A DNA stretch of 64,000 bases from an uncultured Verrucomicrobia subdivision 3 bacterium. GTDB lineage: Bacteria; Verrucomicrobiota; Verrucomicrobiia; Limisphaerales; UBA11358. Each line of letters opens with the position of its first letter. Position 1 is the first letter of the stretch. The stretch spans positions 1-64,000 of the forward strand of contig CAISYZ010000121.1 in NCBI GenBank assembly GCA_903889895.1, written 5' to 3'. Positions 6,481 through 54,896 of this stretch are shown one piece after another. The notes beneath the pieces were generated by a model. The model was not told the origin of the DNA. It did not search any database and saw only the letters and a program-made list of their open reading frames with translations. Position numbers and translations under genes: made by a program.

Positions 6481-6687
6481 TTAGGCTCTCAATTTTTTCT
6501 CATAGCCCCAATAATAAATGAGGTGCAGCTTCTCCACCGTCCACGGCAGGTCGCGGACGACGAAGCCGCGTCCGGCGCGCCAGAGCGGTTCGCTTTCCGG
6601 CAACGCGCAGACATCTCGCAGGCGTTTGGCCATGACGCGGCAGGTTTCGCCGAAAATGCCAGAGTTCCAGTAATGCGAGTTCGCCAT
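6481..6687 (-). CDS. 68-aa protein of unknown function, start codon overlapping the DUF262-HNH stop (TAATG)
   Basis: MANSHYWNSGIFGETCRVMAKRLRDVCALPESEPLWRAGRGFVVRDLPWTVEKLHLIYYWGYEKKLRA; second related copy at 3393-3524. Confidence 0.55.
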   Translation of the reverse strand: MANSHYWNSGIFGETCRVMAKRLRDVCALPESEPLWRAGRGFVVRDLPWTVEKLHLIYYWGYEKKLRA

Positions 6688-7769
6688 TATTTCCCAGCCT
6701 TTTCCCTGTTGTGCTCTTTGCAAAGCATCTCGCAATTTTCAGGAATGGTCTTGCCGCCATCGTGCCACGGTTTTTTATGGTCGCCTTCCATTTCCTCAAA
6801 CTTCCATTTCTTTTTTTCTTTGCACTTTGGACAAATTCCCTTTTGCCTTTCCCATGCCTCACGCTTTTGCTTGTCAGTAAAGGCACGAATGTTCAGGAAC
6901 TTTTCCTTCCCATTTAGGACATAGGTGTAAATGCCTTTCTTGTTCGTCACATCCTCATCTTCCATCAACGTTGAGATTCTCTTTTCCAGCTTCTCAGGGT
7001 CAGGTTTTTCGTCCTTGTGCACATTGTAGAGACGGCCAAAGGGCACGCCCTTCATTTCACTACGATACTCTGGAAAGATAGTTTTGACCCATTTGATGAC
7101 CACTTGAAAATACTGCCACAATTCTTTGGCGTCCTTGTGATCCTGATGGTCGGACATGTAGCCCTTGATGTCCCCGTTGGAAATCCAGTCAATAACCGTT
7201 TCTAAAAATTCCTGTCGAATCGCGACGCCGCTGAGATAGTCGTCGCCTAACTTTGGGCGATTAGCTTTGGAGAAATACCTTTTAGCATCCGTAACCCATG
7301 TCCCTGAGTAAACCGCATTTTTCAATTCTTGGGGTGTCAATTCTTCGCCAGAAATGTTGATTGTCTCGAACCAGTCCAACCGTTCGCTGTCCGTTCCTGA
7401 GCACAGATAAATCGTTAACTTGTAGTCCAAAATCTGTTTCTGCTCGTCGCCTTGAAGGTTGTGGAACTTCAGACCCTTAATCGAAAAATCCTTGTTCACA
7501 TACCTACATATCGAAACTGTGCGTTGCTGCCCGTCAATAATCTCAAAATTGCCATCTGCGCGCACTGACCAATACATGACATTCAAGGGATAGTCCTGTC
7601 TGACGGTGTTGATAACAGCGTCTCGCTGCTTGTCCTTGTAAATGAACTCGCGCTGATAGGGCGGGCGGATGTCGAGTTTGCCCCCGTAACCGCGAACGCC
7701 CTCTTCCTGCTTGTCCTCGTAACCCTTTGTCAGTTCGCGAATAGTCAGTTGTAATGGCTGGATTTTCAT
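6687..7769 (-). CDS. DUF262 domain protein with C-terminal HNH nuclease
   Basis: IDGQQRTVSICRY (DUF262/ParB-like DGQQR motif) plus CPKCKEKKKW...GDHKKPWHDGGKTIPENCEMLCKEHNREK (HNH). Confidence 0.85.
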   Translation of the reverse strand: MKIQPLQLTIRELTKGYEDKQEEGVRGYGGKLDIRPPYQREFIYKDKQRDAVINTVRQDYPLNVMYWSVRADGNFEIIDGQQRTVSICRYVNKDFSIKGLKFHNLQGDEQKQILDYKLTIYLCSGTDSERLDWFETINISGEELTPQELKNAVYSGTWVTDAKRYFSKANRPKLGDDYLSGVAIRQEFLETVIDWISNGDIKGYMSDHQDHKDAKELWQYFQVVIKWVKTIFPEYRSEMKGVPFGRLYNVHKDEKPDPEKLEKRISTLMEDEDVTNKKGIYTYVLNGKEKFLNIRAFTDKQKREAWERQKGICPKCKEKKKWKFEEMEGDHKKPWHDGGKTIPENCEMLCKEHNREKAGK

Positions 7770-8767
7770 TTTGGTCGTTCTGGATTTTTGTTTCGGATGA
7801 ATAGGCGTTTGAAAGTTTCCTTGCCATTCAGATAAGAGCCACGCCCATAAACCCCGTTCGGGTCTTGATCAACACCACGGTTGCAACCGAGAATCTCGAA
7901 TTGTTCGGGGTTATACCTATCGAGAAATGTCACGGGCACGCCCATCACACCGTCGTAGTCAATCGGAATGTCCGCAGTTTTTGACACTTCAATTGCGTCG
8001 TAGTTGTCATATTTCGGATAATCTTTGCGATTGTAATTTTTAAACAAAATCAAATCCTCGTGACGCTTCTTGTTATCAATGTTCGTGAACCAGCAAGTTG
8101 TGTTCGTGGAAATGACTCGTTGCCCATTCTCCATACGAGCCTCAGTCCCACTCAAAGGGTAATGCTCGGGGACGATGAATCCTGAAAAATTGCGGTTACT
8201 GTTTACACCAATCCAAAGCTTGTTTTCCTTAATCAGCTTGAAAACTTCTATGTAGGTTATCACGTTCCAACTGCCGACAATTAGGAATTTCTTCTTGTGC
8301 GCCGCAAGTTGCGAAACATATTCCCTGAACAACGAAAAGGGCGGGTTGGTAACAACAATGTCGGATTGCTTAAGCAACTCAATGCACTCTTGGCTGCGAA
8401 AATCTCCGTCGCCCTTCAATTGTTTAATGTCCTTGTCCTTATACTTTGGAACGTTGCCGCCTTCGTCGCCGGTGTATTCCAAGTAAATTGCCCGTTCAAC
8501 TTTGTGGCGGCTGAACAAATCCGCATCTTGATTCTTGTAGCAGGTCGTTATCAGTTTCTTCAAACCCAACTCCGCAAAGTTGTATGAAAAATAGTGGAAG
8601 AAATTACTTTTGCGAGGGTCGTCACAATTGCAAAACACGGTTTTCTTTTTGAAGTGCTTAACGTAGTGCGTCAGTTCTCTTTCGATGTCGGCAAGGATCG
8701 TGTAGAACTCGTCGTTCTTATCGCTTTTCGCCTTGTTCAAAAGCTTGTTGGTTGCGTTTCTTGCCAT
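7766..8767 (-). CDS. M.EcoRI-family adenine-specific DNA methyltransferase
   Basis: VTNPPFSLFREYVSQL (motif IV NPPF) and overall M.EcoRI-like layout; ATGA overlap with the DUF262-HNH start. Confidence 0.75.
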   Translation of the reverse strand: MARNATNKLLNKAKSDKNDEFYTILADIERELTHYVKHFKKKTVFCNCDDPRKSNFFHYFSYNFAELGLKKLITTCYKNQDADLFSRHKVERAIYLEYTGDEGGNVPKYKDKDIKQLKGDGDFRSQECIELLKQSDIVVTNPPFSLFREYVSQLAAHKKKFLIVGSWNVITYIEVFKLIKENKLWIGVNSNRNFSGFIVPEHYPLSGTEARMENGQRVISTNTTCWFTNIDNKKRHEDLILFKNYNRKDYPKYDNYDAIEVSKTADIPIDYDGVMGVPVTFLDRYNPEQFEILGCNRGVDQDPNGVYGRGSYLNGKETFKRLFIRNKNPERPK

Positions 8768-8776
8768 TTTATTTGA

Positions 8777-9241
8777 TCAGTTAAAAAAATTATTTTCGCC
8801 GAAAATCCGTTCGAGCACAACCTTGACGTAGTGGCTGGCGTGCCAGTCGCAGTGGTAATAAAAGCTGCCGGTCTTTTTGAGGACGCGGGCGAGTTGCACG
8901 CAGCGCGGGCGCAGGTAGTCAATGTAAGCCCTGGTGTTCTCGTGGCGGTCTTCAAAGGCGCGCTTCTCCTTGGTCTCGCCCCAGACTGTGCCAGTCCGGC
9001 ACGGACCGCCGCAATAAACCACGCGGGTGTCGAGGAGGCTGCCGGGCTTTGCCGGTTTGGTGGTGGTAGGGCGGCGTTGCTGCGCCGCCTTCCCTTCGCC
9101 CCGGCTGACCGGCAGGTCAGCCCTACCAGCGGAGGCTGGAGAAGTTTTCGCGCCGGAAAGCTTTTTGGCCATGCGCGGAAGTTTGCGCGGGAATATTTGC
9201 GGCGTCAATTCGGAGTTGGCCGGTTCGGCATTGTTCGGCAC
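8777..9241 (-). pseudogene. truncated DNA methyltransferase (Mod-like), 5' portion only, with internal deletion
   Basis: VWGETKEKRAFEDRHENTRAYIDYLRPRCVQLARVLKKTGSFYYHCDWHASHYVKVVLERIFGENNF is typical of Mod-like MTases, but no DPPF/Y motif is present and the ORF stops at GENNFFN. Confidence 0.75.
9065..9127. repeat. short palindromic/REP-like element with GGTAGGGC...GCCCTACC termini
   Basis: Perfect 8-bp terminal inverted repeat; internal similarity to 52204-52259. Confidence 0.6.
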
Positions 9242-9361
9242 TTGGTTGCTTGGACGGTTTAAACCGGTATTTATGTCTCAAATCCAAACAAAAGTGTCCT
9301 GCGCCTGCTTTATTTCAGGACGCCGCCAGATCGGGCGGAGCTGGGGTTCTTGGTTGCCGCC

Positions 9362-9676
9362 ATTTCCCAATATATAGATGGCATTTCCCAAACCTTCGGC
9401 GTCGTTCCGCAATATTGCGACACGGTTTCGCAACCTTGGGAAATGATTTCCCAATATTGGGAAATCATTTTGAGATATTGCGAAAGGCCGCCAACCCCTT
9501 GGGTTGGCAACTTTAACCTTAAAAACCAACCTTCCCCACCCTGCCCCGGCTCTCCGCAATATTGCGAAATCATTTCGCAATATTGGGAAATGGTTTTGTA
9601 ACCTTGGGAAATCGTTTCCCAAGGTTGGGAAATGCCGCCGAGATATTGCGCCGCGACTTCGTTAGTTTGGGAAACT
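9362..9676. repeat. 21-bp tandem array of dyad-symmetric units (15 in-register unit positions; units 7-9 degenerate)
   Basis: Manual segmentation: 9446-9466 atttcccaatattgggaaatc, 9572-9592 atttcgcaatattgggaaatg, 9614-9634 gtttcccaaggttgggaaatg, etc. Confidence 0.92.
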
Positions 9677-9834
9677 CCAGCCACGGACCGCCCCGCCCCG
9701 GTCAATTTTTCGGATTTTTTTTAGCGGCGTTAATCCACTTCATCAGTATAAGTTATTATAATCAGTTGGTATGACTTAAGCTTATGTCCCACCGTCGGTA
9801 AAAAATAATAACAAACGAACAGAAAGAAAAAATC

Positions 9835-10455
9835 ATGATCATTAAACCGGCCATTTCATGGCTTAACACAGACTCGGATTCCGAGCTGATCAACGACATC
9901 ACCGTGGTCATCCTCGGTGTGGGCGGCAACCCGGCCATCTACAGCAAACCCACGCCAGACATCCCCTCCATCCAGCTCGCGCTGAATAATTTCAGCACGG
10001 GCGTGGCGGCAACCGCGGATGGCGGACCCTCGGTCACGTCCAAGAAAAACAACCTGCGACTCATTGTCACCGGCATGGTGCGCCAGCTTGCGGGCTATGT
10101 GCAGACGGCTTGCGGCGGTGACATGACGAACCTGCTGTTGAGCGGGTTCCCGGTGCAAAAGCCCACGCGCGCGCCCATCGGCGTGTTGGCTGCGCCTAGC
10201 AATCCGGTGCTGGCGCTCGGCACCCGCAGCGGCGAACTGGATGCGAGCGTCAACCCGGTGTTTGGGGCCTCTACCTACAACTGGAAGCTCACCAGCAGCG
10301 TCGCCGGTGCACCGGTGCTGACGGAGCAGACCACGGCCTCGTATGTCACCTTTGCCAGTCTCACGCCAGGTGCGACCTTTACGATGACGTGCTACGTGGT
10401 GGGTGCCGCCGGCCCGAGCGATTGGAGCAAGGCTGTCAGCCAGATGGCGGTGTAA
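9835..10455 (+). CDS. small protein with helical N-terminal region and C-terminal FN3-like domain
   Basis: C-terminal ...GELDASVNPVFGASTYNWKLTSS...SLTPGATFTMTCYVVGAAGPSDWSKAVSQ; layout matches the 51440-52162 protein. Confidence 0.8.
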   Translation: MIIKPAISWLNTDSDSELINDITVVILGVGGNPAIYSKPTPDIPSIQLALNNFSTGVAATADGGPSVTSKKNNLRLIVTGMVRQLAGYVQTACGGDMTNLLLSGFPVQKPTRAPIGVLAAPSNPVLALGTRSGELDASVNPVFGASTYNWKLTSSVAGAPVLTEQTTASYVTFASLTPGATFTMTCYVVGAAGPSDWSKAVSQMAV

Positions 10456-51031: not shown

Positions 51032-51316
51032 TTACGACCCCTTGAGCGCCTGCAACATCAGATCCGACTGCGCGCCGACCGACTGCACCTCAGCCTGCGT
51101 CAGCGGATCCGCGTCGGAGATGTTCAGCGGACTCATCGTCGAGAGTTGATTATCCAGCGCATCCCAGCGCGCCTGGTGCGCGGCCAGTTGCGCCTGCAAC
51201 GCGGTCACCTGACTTTGCAGCGCGGTGTTCTGGTCGTTCAAGGCGTTGAACTGGTTGCGTAATTCCGCCGCCACGATGGGCGCATTGTTCACGGGTAAAG
51301 ATGGATTGAAAGCCAT
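51032..51316 (-). CDS. small coiled-coil protein (94 aa)
   Basis: MAFNPSLPVNNAPIVAAELRNQFNALNDQNTALQSQVTALQAQLAAHQ...; next to and co-oriented with the FN3 gene. Confidence 0.65.
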   Translation of the reverse strand: MAFNPSLPVNNAPIVAAELRNQFNALNDQNTALQSQVTALQAQLAAHQARWDALDNQLSTMSPLNISDADPLTQAEVQSVGAQSDLMLQALKGS

Positions 51317-51439: not shown

Positions 51440-52162
51440 TTAGGGGACGATCTTCGAGATTTCGCTGCTGAAGTTGCCTTCGCCGCCCGTGCCGATGGCG
51501 CGCACGCGCACCCAGATGCGCGCCCCGCTGGTGAAGCCCGGCAACACCGCCGACGACTTCGTCACGCTCTTGGTCTTGGACCAGCTCGTCGCCGTGAAGG
51601 GATCGGGGCTGGTTTGCACCTCGTAGGTTTTGGCGCCGGGCACCGGGTCCCATTGCGCATTCAGTTCCCCGTCGTGGTCGCCTGCCGTCACTGCCAGGTT
51701 CATCACCTGCGGCGGCACACCCGCCGGCGTCTTGTTGGCGCGCGAACTGAAATTCGCGCTTTGGATGGTCGCCACCGGATCGGCCGCGCTGGCGGCCGTG
51801 AGTTCCACATAATTGCCGCGCTGGGTGAGCGCCGATTCCAGCGCCGCCCGCGCGGTGTCTTTGTTGGTGGTGGCCAGCTTGGCCGCCGCCTGCGCCGTGT
51901 TGAAGGTCCCCAGCGCGGCAGCGTAAGCCGCCCGCACGGACGTGAATTCCGTCACGGGCGGCAACGGCGTGGTGAAGTTGGGGTTGCCCGTCATCGCCGT
52001 CTCGTGCCCCTCCGCGAACGGCAGCAGGTCGTTGTCCGTTTTATTGAATAGGTCCAGTTTGACTTTCGCTTTTTTCATGATGTTGAACAGTTGCGGCGGC
52101 ACCGGGTCGGCGTAAGTCAGCCCGCTGTCATACGTCGAGGAGGGGTCATCATAGTCGGCCAC
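51440..52162 (-). CDS. small protein with helical N-terminal region and C-terminal FN3 domain
   Basis: VMNLAVTAGDHDGELNAQWDPVPGAKTYEVQTSPDPFTATSWSKTKSVTKSSAVLPGFTSGARIWVRVRAIGTGGEGNFSSEISKIVP; GTG start. Confidence 0.82.
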   Translation of the reverse strand: MADYDDPSSTYDSGLTYADPVPPQLFNIMKKAKVKLDLFNKTDNDLLPFAEGHETAMTGNPNFTTPLPPVTEFTSVRAAYAAALGTFNTAQAAAKLATTNKDTARAALESALTQRGNYVELTAASAADPVATIQSANFSSRANKTPAGVPPQVMNLAVTAGDHDGELNAQWDPVPGAKTYEVQTSPDPFTATSWSKTKSVTKSSAVLPGFTSGARIWVRVRAIGTGGEGNFSSEISKIVP

Positions 52163-52203
52163 GGCTCTGCCTTTGGTTTAGGTTTATTATGTTTGTTTTC
52201 GCT

Positions 52204-52259
52204 GGCAGGGCAAACCGGCTGGCTTGCTGGGAATGGCGGCGCCGCAGCGTCGCCCTGCC
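52204..52259. repeat. short palindromic/REP-like element with GGCAGGGC...GCCCTGCC termini
   Basis: 8-bp perfect terminal inverted repeat; reverse complement resembles 9065-9127. Confidence 0.55.
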
Positions 52260-52408
52260 TTCCCGTTCCCGCTGTCCAATAAACCACGATTCCCCCGCCC
52301 GGCCTATTGCTCAATTCGGGAAAAATTGCAATCGGGTCAGGACCAGGTGGTGCCGCCTCCAAGCCGGCCGGAGGAGATGCAACCCGAAGGAAAATGACTT
52401 CTGCCCGA

Positions 52409-52660
52409 AGTTTAGTCGCTACAACCTTGAGTTTAGCCGTTACAAAACTTTGTGCCGTAGCTACCGCTTCAAGTTTAGTAGCTACAAAACTTCGTGTAGT
52501 AACTACTGCTTTAAGTTTAGTAGCTACAATTCTTCGTGTAGTAACTACTAAACATTGTTTAGTAGCTACAACATCAAGTTTAGTAGCTTCAATATTTAGT
52601 TTAGTAGTCTCAATATTTAATATTGAAGTTTCAACATTTAATATTGAAGTCTCAAAAACG
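52409..52660. repeat. 21-bp tandem array of dyad-symmetric units (12 units)
   Basis: Manual segmentation: agtttagtagctacaaaactt / cgtgtagtaactactgcttta / agtttagtagctacaattctt / ... / aatattgaagtttcaacattt / aatattgaagtctcaaaaacg. Confidence 0.92.
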
Positions 52661-52781
52661 GCCAAAATGGCCAGAAAACCCGTTTTTTTGCCAATTTTGG
52701 TGAAAACTGAGGTTTCCGCCCTACCTGCCCTACGCCGCCCACGGACGGATGGGGTCCCTTGACCCAGCGGGATAGCATCCG

Positions 52782-54896
52782 TCAGCCCAGCGTCTTGAGC
52801 CGGCGATCCAAATCTTTCCGGGTGATGAGGTCGATGACCTGCAAATGGTCGGGGTGCAGCCGGAAGAGCAGCCGGTAATCCGACCCGATCCGTTGCCGCA
52901 TCACATTGGGCACGGCCTTGAGCCGGAGCGCGCCGACGAAAGCCGCCGGTTCGCCCGCCGCCAGCCGCCCCGCCATGATCATGGCGGCCCGGGCGACGGG
53001 ACGCGGAAAACCCGCGAGCACCAGCTGAAACCCCTTGGGAAACTCGATCAGCCGCACCGGGTGGACATCCACCGCATCCGGCGGCAGCAATAATTCGTCC
53101 TCGCGGTCCGGGGCTTCCGCCTCCTCGGGCGCCCCGGCGGCGGCGGCGTTTTGCTGCAGCGTTTCCAGGTGCGCGAGCGCCTGCTGCAAATCGCGCCGCA
53201 AATCATTCCGTTCGTGATGCCGTTCCTTGAGCGCTGATTTCAAGCCGTCCACTTTGCGCCGCAATTCCTTCAGGGCCGGCTCGTCCGCCGGATTGGGCGC
53301 AACGGGCGGCACGGGCTGGGCCGGGCCGGCGGCTTTCTGTTCCCGCCGGCTGATTTCCTTTTGCAGGCGCGCCAGGGATTCCTTGAGTTCCTGCACCTCC
53401 TGCGCCTTGGCGGCAAATTTCTGGCGGGTCGCGCGCAGTTCGGCCGATTCCTTTTTATGCGTATCCTCCGGTTCGGCAAAGCGCTGGTCGAACAGTTCCG
53501 CAATCGGGTCGTCCGGCGACAGGTTCAACTGGTCGCGCGTGCGCAGGATTTCCTCAAACACCCGGCTCGCCTGCTTTTGCGGCAGGATGGGGATGGCGCC
53601 GCGCCCGACGAGGATGCCCAGCGCGCGGAAGCGGGAATACATCAGCGCGATGGCCGAACCCTCCAGCTCCGCCGGTTCGTCTTCTTTCAGGGCCTCGGTG
53701 GCGCTTTCATCCAGCAATTTGATCAGTTCCGCCGGGTCATCTTCGGCCAGCAACAGCGCCGCGCCCATGTAGATATCATCCGGCAACTTGACCGGGTCGG
53801 GATGAACTTTCACCAGCCGGCGGAGCGCGGCCTTGTGCCCGGCACGGGTGGCCAGGACCATGACCTGCTGCCACAATTCCTTGCGCTCCGGCGCGTAGCC
53901 GAGCAGTTCAAAGGCGGTGGCGGCCTGGTCGAACAGATTGCAGGCGGCGAGCCGCAAAAAATAAGCTTCCCGCAGCGCGGCGGGAATTTTTACGGGATCC
54001 AGGCGGGCCAGTTCATACGGCTCGATTTTTTCCAGCCGTTCGGCGGTCAGGTAATCCTCCAGTTTCGCGCAGAGCTCCTCATGCGTCACCCCGGCCACGT
54101 CGGAGGAATGGTGCAGCCGCGCCTCATCCTTGGCGATGCAGCAGTGCTTGTATTTTTTGCCGCTGCCGCAGGGGCAGCGTTCGTTGCGGCCCACGCGCGG
54201 CACGGCCCGCCGCATGGTCTGGCCTTCGGCCAGCGTCTGCTTGGGTTTTTCGCCCACGTAGTCCAGCATGGATTTCTGGTAACCCGCCAGGATCTGCGCG
54301 CTTAACTCCGGGGCACGCGCGTCGAAGTCCTGCCATTCCTTGGCCGACATGGAGGGAAACCGCTGCCGCAGCAACTGGATCAGCCCGGCATCTTGCGTCA
54401 GCCTCGCCAGCAGGCACACGAACGTAAAAATCTTCACCTCATCGTCATCATGATTCTTTTGCTTCACCTGCCGGGCCACCGCCCGGACCAGCGGCATGAA
54501 TTTATCCGGCAGCACGCCGCCACGATGATCCCGGCACCACGCCCACAGCAGATGCAGCGCCGCCGCCTCGCACCCCCGGTCCAGCCGCGTCGTCGTCAGC
54601 GCCGTGAGCAAGGGCTCCACGATGTCCCCGTGCATCCGCACCACCACCCGGCCCATCCAGCCATAGTAGGGAAACATCATCGCACCGCCGGCCAGATGCC
54701 GCGCGTCCATCCGCCGGCCCGCGCCCGCCGCCGCCACGAACACATACATGAACCACTTGAGATTCTTGGACGCCACCACCTCGGCCAGCAGTTCATCCAG
54801 CGCCGCGTCCTCCGCCGGCAGCAGCTTGATGGTCTGCTCCACCACCGACAGTTGAAACTGGGTCTCCTCGATGAACTGGCTCAATTCAGGGCTCAT
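52782..54896 (-). CDS. SEC-C motif protein with coiled-coil and C-terminal RelE/ParE-like segment
   Basis: [24 protein letters not shown]-terminal [35 protein letters not shown]. Confidence 0.78.

Follow-up and report, generated by a model that had tools for sequence, protein, structure and literature searches.

REPIN-RAYT systems pair repetitive extragenic palindromes with a matching TnpA-REP gene (PMC3116915, PMC8266576). In Porphyromonas gingivalis, the BrickBuilt MITE occupies 19 loci with 23-nt units that all belong to a single sequence family, has IS5-like inverted ends and is linked to no gene (PMC4596501), and the TAACTGA direct-repeat arrays of Beggiatoaceae, Cyanobacteria and Bacteroidetes are built on a fixed 7-bp unit (PMC4679880). 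In a 64,000-nucleotide stretch from an uncultured subdivision 3 Verrucomicrobia bacterium (hereafter the window), we analysed two tandem arrays of dyad-symmetric 21-bp units, each on the 5' side of a gene encoding a helical bundle and an FN3 domain. Literature searches found no published description of this association, and no described system matched it on all defining features, REPIN-RAYT and the BrickBuilt MITE being the nearest. This appears to be a genetic element not described before, which retains its geometry as its sequence is rewritten again and again, locus by locus.

As in REPIN-RAYT, the palindromes are intergenic and fall into private classes, usually with one family gene per class and gene-less copies elsewhere; in two genomes, companion arrays without the gene occurred and BLAST gave no cross-matches among distinct FN3-linked arrays, in keeping with one gene per palindrome class. 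Unlike REPIN-RAYT, about 13 units stand in tandem at a strict 21-bp period, each class occupies few loci, and the linked gene encodes a helical bundle plus FN3 domain and not a Y1 (HUH) transposase of the TnpA-REP type, since the AF2 fold and the fold and family searches gave FN3 only. With BrickBuilt the arrays share short tandem units, dispersal between genes, one of the phyla and, for some pairs, a conserved leader and tail, but here there are many unrelated classes of 21-bp unit and a linked gene family, and a unit sequence common to all copies is absent, the window's genome holding at least 10 unrelated unit classes. The TAACTGA arrays likewise consist of short direct repeats in intergenic DNA upstream of genes and occur in several phyla, but have neither dyad nor linked gene family. 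Iterons and centromere arrays of plasmids place sites in tandem, at a spacing of about two helical turns, upstream of rep or par genes. They resemble the present arrays in their private sequence per replicon and their tandem sites just upstream of a gene; however, the arrays here are chromosomal and many per genome, the protein is unrelated, there is no Rep, ParM, ParR or TubZ, and neighbour comparison found no adjacent Rep or segregation gene. In type III toxin-antitoxin systems (ToxIN, CptIN, TenpIN), a tandem repeat array lies directly upstream of one small-protein gene, but repeat length, symmetry and protein fold differ from those described here, RNA-level constraint was not found here, and family and fold searches found no ToxN/AbiQ-type endoribonuclease as the downstream gene. 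A CRISPR array was rejected, because the whole 21-bp unit recurs with gradual drift and not as identical repeats with unique spacers.

The two loci of the window comprise the following features, where orphan denotes an array that has no FN3 gene.

9346-9485, no strand: distal half of array 1, a 21-bp tandem with units of the type TTTCsCAAnnTTGsGAAA (lag-21 autocorrelation, unit profile, dyad)
9486-9554, no strand: non-array stretch inside array 1, holding GCAACTTTAACCTTAAAAACC (lag-21 break, alignment with genome G009)
9555-9676, no strand: gene-proximal half of array 1, a 21-bp tandem (TRF with 3.8 copies, lag-21 autocorrelation)
9677-9834, + strand: AT-rich intergenic region from array 1 to the FN3 gene, taken to be the promoter and leader of that gene (sequence, promoter scan)
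9835-10455, + strand: helical-FN3 gene P0001, 206 aa (homology, profile, model)
51032-51316, - strand: companion gene, 94 aa, MAFNPSLPVNNAPIVAAELRNQFNAL..., coiled-coil protein (neighbour comparison)
51440-52162, - strand: helical-FN3 gene P0002, 240 aa, GTG start, with a possible alternative inner ATG at MKKAKVKL (homology, profile, model)
52163-52380, - strand: region from array 2 to the gene, common to orphan array C143 (TTGCAATTTTTCCCGAATTGAGCAATAGGCC), presumed promoter (sequence comparison)
52381-52685, no strand: array 2, a 21-bp tandem with units around GTAGCTAC that change gradually to TTCAATATTAAATGTTGAA at the end far from the gene (TRF, autocorrelation, unit profile)
52686-52760, no strand: gene-distal flank of array 2, about 90% identical to the flank of the C143 orphan array, whose units are unrelated

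In array 1, lag-21 identity exceeded 0.5 over 9346-9662, with a break at about 9486-9554, and TRF together with lag-21 autocorrelation placed array 2 at 52381-52685. A scan of periods 12 to 30 across the 64-kb window revealed none other than 21 with a comparable signal, and the sole further lag-21 signal corresponded to a heptad-coding sequence at 51148-51265. Both arrays of the initial annotation are real; its bounds for array 1 (9362-9676) were right to within one unit and its array-to-gene gaps of 158 and 246 bp hold, but array 1 is not continuous, being interrupted by about 70 bp whose 21-bp core GCAACTTTAACCTTAAAAACC is kept in another species (G009). Its statement that the array sequences differ while period and dyad are kept agrees with the unit profiles, in which the units of arrays 1 and 2 are unrelated. 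The promoter scan gave no strong sigma-70 match in 9677-9834, and at about 8 of 40 loci a member of the coiled-coil companion family lies 3' of the FN3 gene.

P0001 and P0002 are homologous, as had been proposed: BLASTP aligned them at E=1e-8 with 26% identity, a joint profile gave E<1e-70, and their AF2 models (mean pLDDT 94.0 and 90.4) have like folds, an N-terminal helical bundle with helices at 15-30, 43-62 and 65-93 (P0001 numbering) followed by one FN3 domain. Structure searches confirmed the FN3 fold and matched this part only, neither domain resembling a known DNA-binding fold, and no family covered the helical part in family searches. For PF00041, both proteins fall below the Pfam cut-off and other family members above it. 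The family proteins are near-neutral and not basic (median pI 7.2). This genome encodes 13 full-length members (the one on C25 with a longer frame) and a partial match at C59, and the family sample comprised 162 members from this genome, its relatives and named genomes, 153 of them with at least 600 bp upstream. Named carriers include Sphingobacterium, Lacibacter cauensis, Prosthecobacter and subdivision-3 Verrucomicrobia, and occurrence within the phylum is patchy (6/289 sampled genomes at E<1e-15). Identity as a phage tail or fibre protein, and carriage by viruses or plasmids, were rejected because no relatives were found in IMG/VR, phage or plasmid records and PHROG matches fell mostly on the FN3 part. 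Many members have an N-terminal extension (for example window 52040-52162) with repeated aromatic-D/N-S/T-G motifs (YDSGLTYAD, TWNSGQTWNQSG), which is modelled with low confidence.

To call an array, we required an identity of at least 0.571 in a 63-bp window at a lag of 20-22. The check named in the initial annotation, an enrichment of 20-22-bp arrays upstream of homologs, gave a clear result: an upstream array was present in 114/153 family members, compared with 0-3/153 at each of the control lags 13-19 and 24-29 and with none at lag 21 in mononucleotide shuffles of the same stretches. In the Verrucomicrobiota set, 91/120 family genes had an array versus 5/392 other genes (p=5e-68), and two of these five other genes trace to the family member L120. 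The enrichment extended to a second phylum, Bacteroidota, with 14/21 family genes versus 5/49 controls, three of the five being family genes left unmasked in the control. The members are kin and the counts are thus not fully independent, yet paralogs at 20-30% identity have unrelated arrays. About one quarter of the members have no detectable array and about one quarter of the arrays no significant dyad. This enrichment supports the original reading of geometry-conserved arrays beside paralogous helical-FN3 genes, and the association of 21-bp arrays with FN3 genes in two phyla is well supported as an architecture. Between array and gene, promoter-like pairs numbered 58 family-wide versus 33 in shuffles, about a 1.8-fold excess.

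The FN3-linked arrays all lie 5' of their gene, at a distance of about 100-500 bp, and contain a median of 13 units (6-19 at the 5-95% bounds; range 5-22). The period is 21 bp, with 22/44 or 20 bp at a few loci and sometimes 22 bp in Bacteroidota, which amounts to two helical turns. A significant dyad (p<0.05) was detected in 84/111 arrays. In the mean of 99 arrays, information is highest at offset 3 (~3.5 bp) on both sides of an inter-base axis, at about 1.05-1.09 bits, and reaches its minimum of 0.63 bits at the spacer centre; half-site complementarity also peaks at offset 3. In Sphingobacterium orthologs, TACTG...CAGTA is kept while the spacers drift. Where one half-site deviates, the other keeps the consensus in 64% of cases and compensates in 15%, compared with 12% expected from column frequencies and 13% with a neighbouring unit; a second analysis gave a similar result, and the halves of a unit do not compensate each other. 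Because the partner mostly keeps the consensus and rarely compensates, the halves behave as separately contacted sites.

Of the three options first offered for the arrays (dimeric-protein sites, hairpin RNA and a heptad-coding small ORF), double-stranded sites for a putative dimeric protein fit best, given the symmetric peak near the axis and the lack of both compensation and codon signal. It is improbable that the array is transcribed as a tandem-hairpin or one-long-hairpin RNA, for instance one like a type III antitoxin, even though the array-then-gene layout is that of type III and window arrays 1 and 2 give much stronger folds than shuffled sequences do (z -9.8 and -7.7). Strong folding follows from palindromic units alone, however, and no nested fold centre was preferred beyond unit-shuffled controls in 87/89 arrays, nor did half-sites compensate; the downstream protein has no ToxN-like fold, and the Rfam matches on arrays were chance-level microRNA far below the cut-off, no family exceeding the threshold. 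A heptad-repeat small protein encoded by the array is very improbable: 21 bp do equal seven codons and a frame is open in 60/89 arrays, but column-shuffled arrays reach 50/89, codon-position variance is below the null, and the 22- and 20-bp arrays break the frame.

Similarity between units declines along the array from 0.59 to 0.44 over ten units and both array ends are degenerate, implying local copying among units; polar array growth was rejected on account of degeneration on both sides. In genome G018, the paralogous loci L120 and L121 encode 84%-identical proteins and have identical proximal leaders, about 12 units each and alike spacers, whereas the core is CCAgcTGG in one and GTAccTAC in the other, in every unit. 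The core has thus switched at least once through dyad-symmetric changes. No segment of the protein concentrates changes when cores switch, and a specificity patch was accordingly rejected. Array content has also been exchanged between flanks: array 2 (C121b) and the C143 orphan have unrelated units between two flanks that are both about 90% identical, and orphan C76 combines the flank of C61 with the units of C8. A leader and tail around the repeats are clear for C121b/C143 and C61/C76 and absent for most pairs. In G000, the flank CTAATTGGCTTTTTTTATACA was observed at one end of the arrays C96, C2 (with one base different) and C196 (40806-41210), one of which has an unrelated unit. That protein similarity dictates array sequence was rejected, the correlation being weak overall and strong only above about 60% protein identity. 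Unrelated arrays are possible at 75% protein identity, and window array 2 resembles the array of C159 although the proteins are just 22% identical; G000 and G009 have 80%-identical FN3 proteins with similar arrays at different loci.

Orphan arrays, which the initial annotation had not anticipated, were found through similarity to FN3-linked arrays and from sampled stretches. When the FN3-linked arrays were compared by BLAST with their own genome, we found about 11 companion arrays lacking an FN3 gene here and a similar number in G018, and no companion was another FN3-linked array; the rough chance of no such cross-match is 0.003 and 0.0002, depending on the assumed orphan number. FN3-linked arrays within one genome are almost always distinct, with 3/326 pairs alike. 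Within this genome, the core of window array 2 recurs at one other place only, an orphan 21-bp array on C156 that lies between slipin and NfeD genes. FN3-linked and orphan arrays can share a palindrome while their spacers are independent, as on C145 and C245. An HMM search revealed no FN3 remnant beside the companion orphans; an FN3-deleted copy of the cassette is present at the C207 contig end. Several orphans are followed by a gene start at a distance of 100-420 bp, and some lie between convergent genes. Other arrays with no FN3 gene were observed at L285 (3380-3680) and L317 (6962-7700), one of them of 739 bp. Random sampling of 269 kb of this genome yielded no orphan, and two orphans encountered incidentally elsewhere had no match among the known FN3 classes; it is therefore suggestive only that each class usually comprises one FN3-linked array plus orphans elsewhere in the genome.

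We tentatively favour, with somewhat less than even confidence, a dispersed two-part cassette composed of an array of double-stranded sites and a helical-FN3 gene, with a putative dimeric reader controlling the promoter. Judged from sequence, this cassette layout has private classes with both FN3-linked and orphan arrays. About 13 double-stranded DNA sites (range 5-22), mostly palindromic, recur every 21 bp, and because this is two helical turns all of them lie on the same face of the helix. Each site may be bound by the dimer of a protein with sequence specificity, neighbouring dimers would lie side by side and cooperate, and the filled array would control the promoter between array and gene as well as some genes next to orphans; for the orphans between convergent genes, promoter control is unlikely. 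Also weighing against this reading are the lack of any DNA-binding gene conserved among the neighbours of the loci, the members with no array, the arrays with no significant dyad and the small size of the promoter excess. Slippage or conversion copying would keep the units alike while flanks and spacing stay, so that the core could switch in all units within a short time.

The FN3 protein itself could be the class-specific reader of its own array and of the orphans of that class, one gene per class as in REPIN-RAYT. It is the only protein common to the loci; in two genomes the companions are orphans, without cross-matches between one FN3-linked array and another; array and gene move together, as G000 and G009 show; and FN3-linked arrays within a genome are nearly all distinct. 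We nevertheless regard this as doubtful, and the protein as a possible but disfavoured candidate, because of its neutral charge, the lack of a DNA-binding fold in either domain and the lack of a specificity patch at the core switch; the unrelated arrays at 75% protein identity and the alike arrays of array 2 and C159 at 22% also argue against it. It is unlikely, too, that the array is a selfish or neutral minisatellite in a dispersed, BrickBuilt-like intergenic element that has no reader and carries the FN3 gene as a passenger. Such an element would agree with the orphans, some between convergent genes, with the kept flanks around differing content, with the decay of unit similarity towards degenerate ends and with the FN3-deleted copy at C207, but it leaves unexplained the dyad, the retention of a two-turn period in two phyla despite unrelated sequences, the link with a single gene family, invariably 5' of the gene, and the conservation of half-sites over spacers, and no inverted repeats were noticed at the flanks in an unsystematic look.

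At somewhat less than even odds, the two-part cassette could represent a new mobile or regulatory element, in which a locus-private site specificity changes in every unit at once but the two-turn spacing, the symmetry and the flanks persist, with many mutually orthogonal site-reader pairs per genome across Verrucomicrobiota and Bacteroidota. What appears new from these comparisons is that each class usually has companion arrays lacking the gene elsewhere in the genome, that distinct FN3 loci seldom share a class, and that content is replaced between kept flanks. An unnamed, many-copy protein family in two large phyla is thereby tied to a cis element defined by geometry and not by sequence, which would escape both homology and motif searches. 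Should the cores be operators, a single genome would hold a dozen or more orthogonal dimer-site pairs and natural cases of specificity switching in concert, as observed between 84%-identical paralogs; if the arrays are selfish, their content would be exchangeable between fixed flanks. Both readings are testable in the cultured carriers Sphingobacterium nematocida, S. faecale, S. tabacisoli, S. pedocola and Lacibacter cauensis.

The cassettes occupy scattered loci. Of these, the FKBP-degP-dnaJ junction carries a cassette in this genome and in G018, with different FN3 members and different adjoining type II restriction-modification systems, while 17/19 other genomes checked have no full member there (G015 has a weak partial match, and several of the stretches are short). 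Beside cassette 1, at window 6687-8767 (- strand), lies a complete type II pair composed of a GmrSD_N-HNH restriction enzyme (PADLOC REase_II, E=8e-134) and an EcoRI-type adenine methylase (E=1e-130), and in G018 a BglII-type pair lies beside the different cassette at the same junction. Arrays of restriction sites were rejected, as the EcoRI and BglII sites, which we assumed from the family names, are not array cores when compared by eye. Three loci (L101, L114 and L122) adjoin a Cas9-Cas1-Cas2 operon that lies upstream of the FN3 gene and is transcribed away from it. Directly upstream of array 2, window 52782-54896 (- strand) encodes a protein of 704 aa that has a SEC-C motif and, at its C-terminus, a weakly matching ParE-like toxin domain that falls below the Pfam cut-off; this protein also adjoins an FN3 gene in G026 (contig C285) and is found in 6/49 congeneric genomes, including that of the window. 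Separate from the arrays, a dispersed GC-rich palindrome family, GTAGGGCGACGCTGC(c/g)GCGTCGCC, occurs at window 9066-9131 and 52225-52260 and on C48 after its FN3 gene, and recurs near several cassettes.
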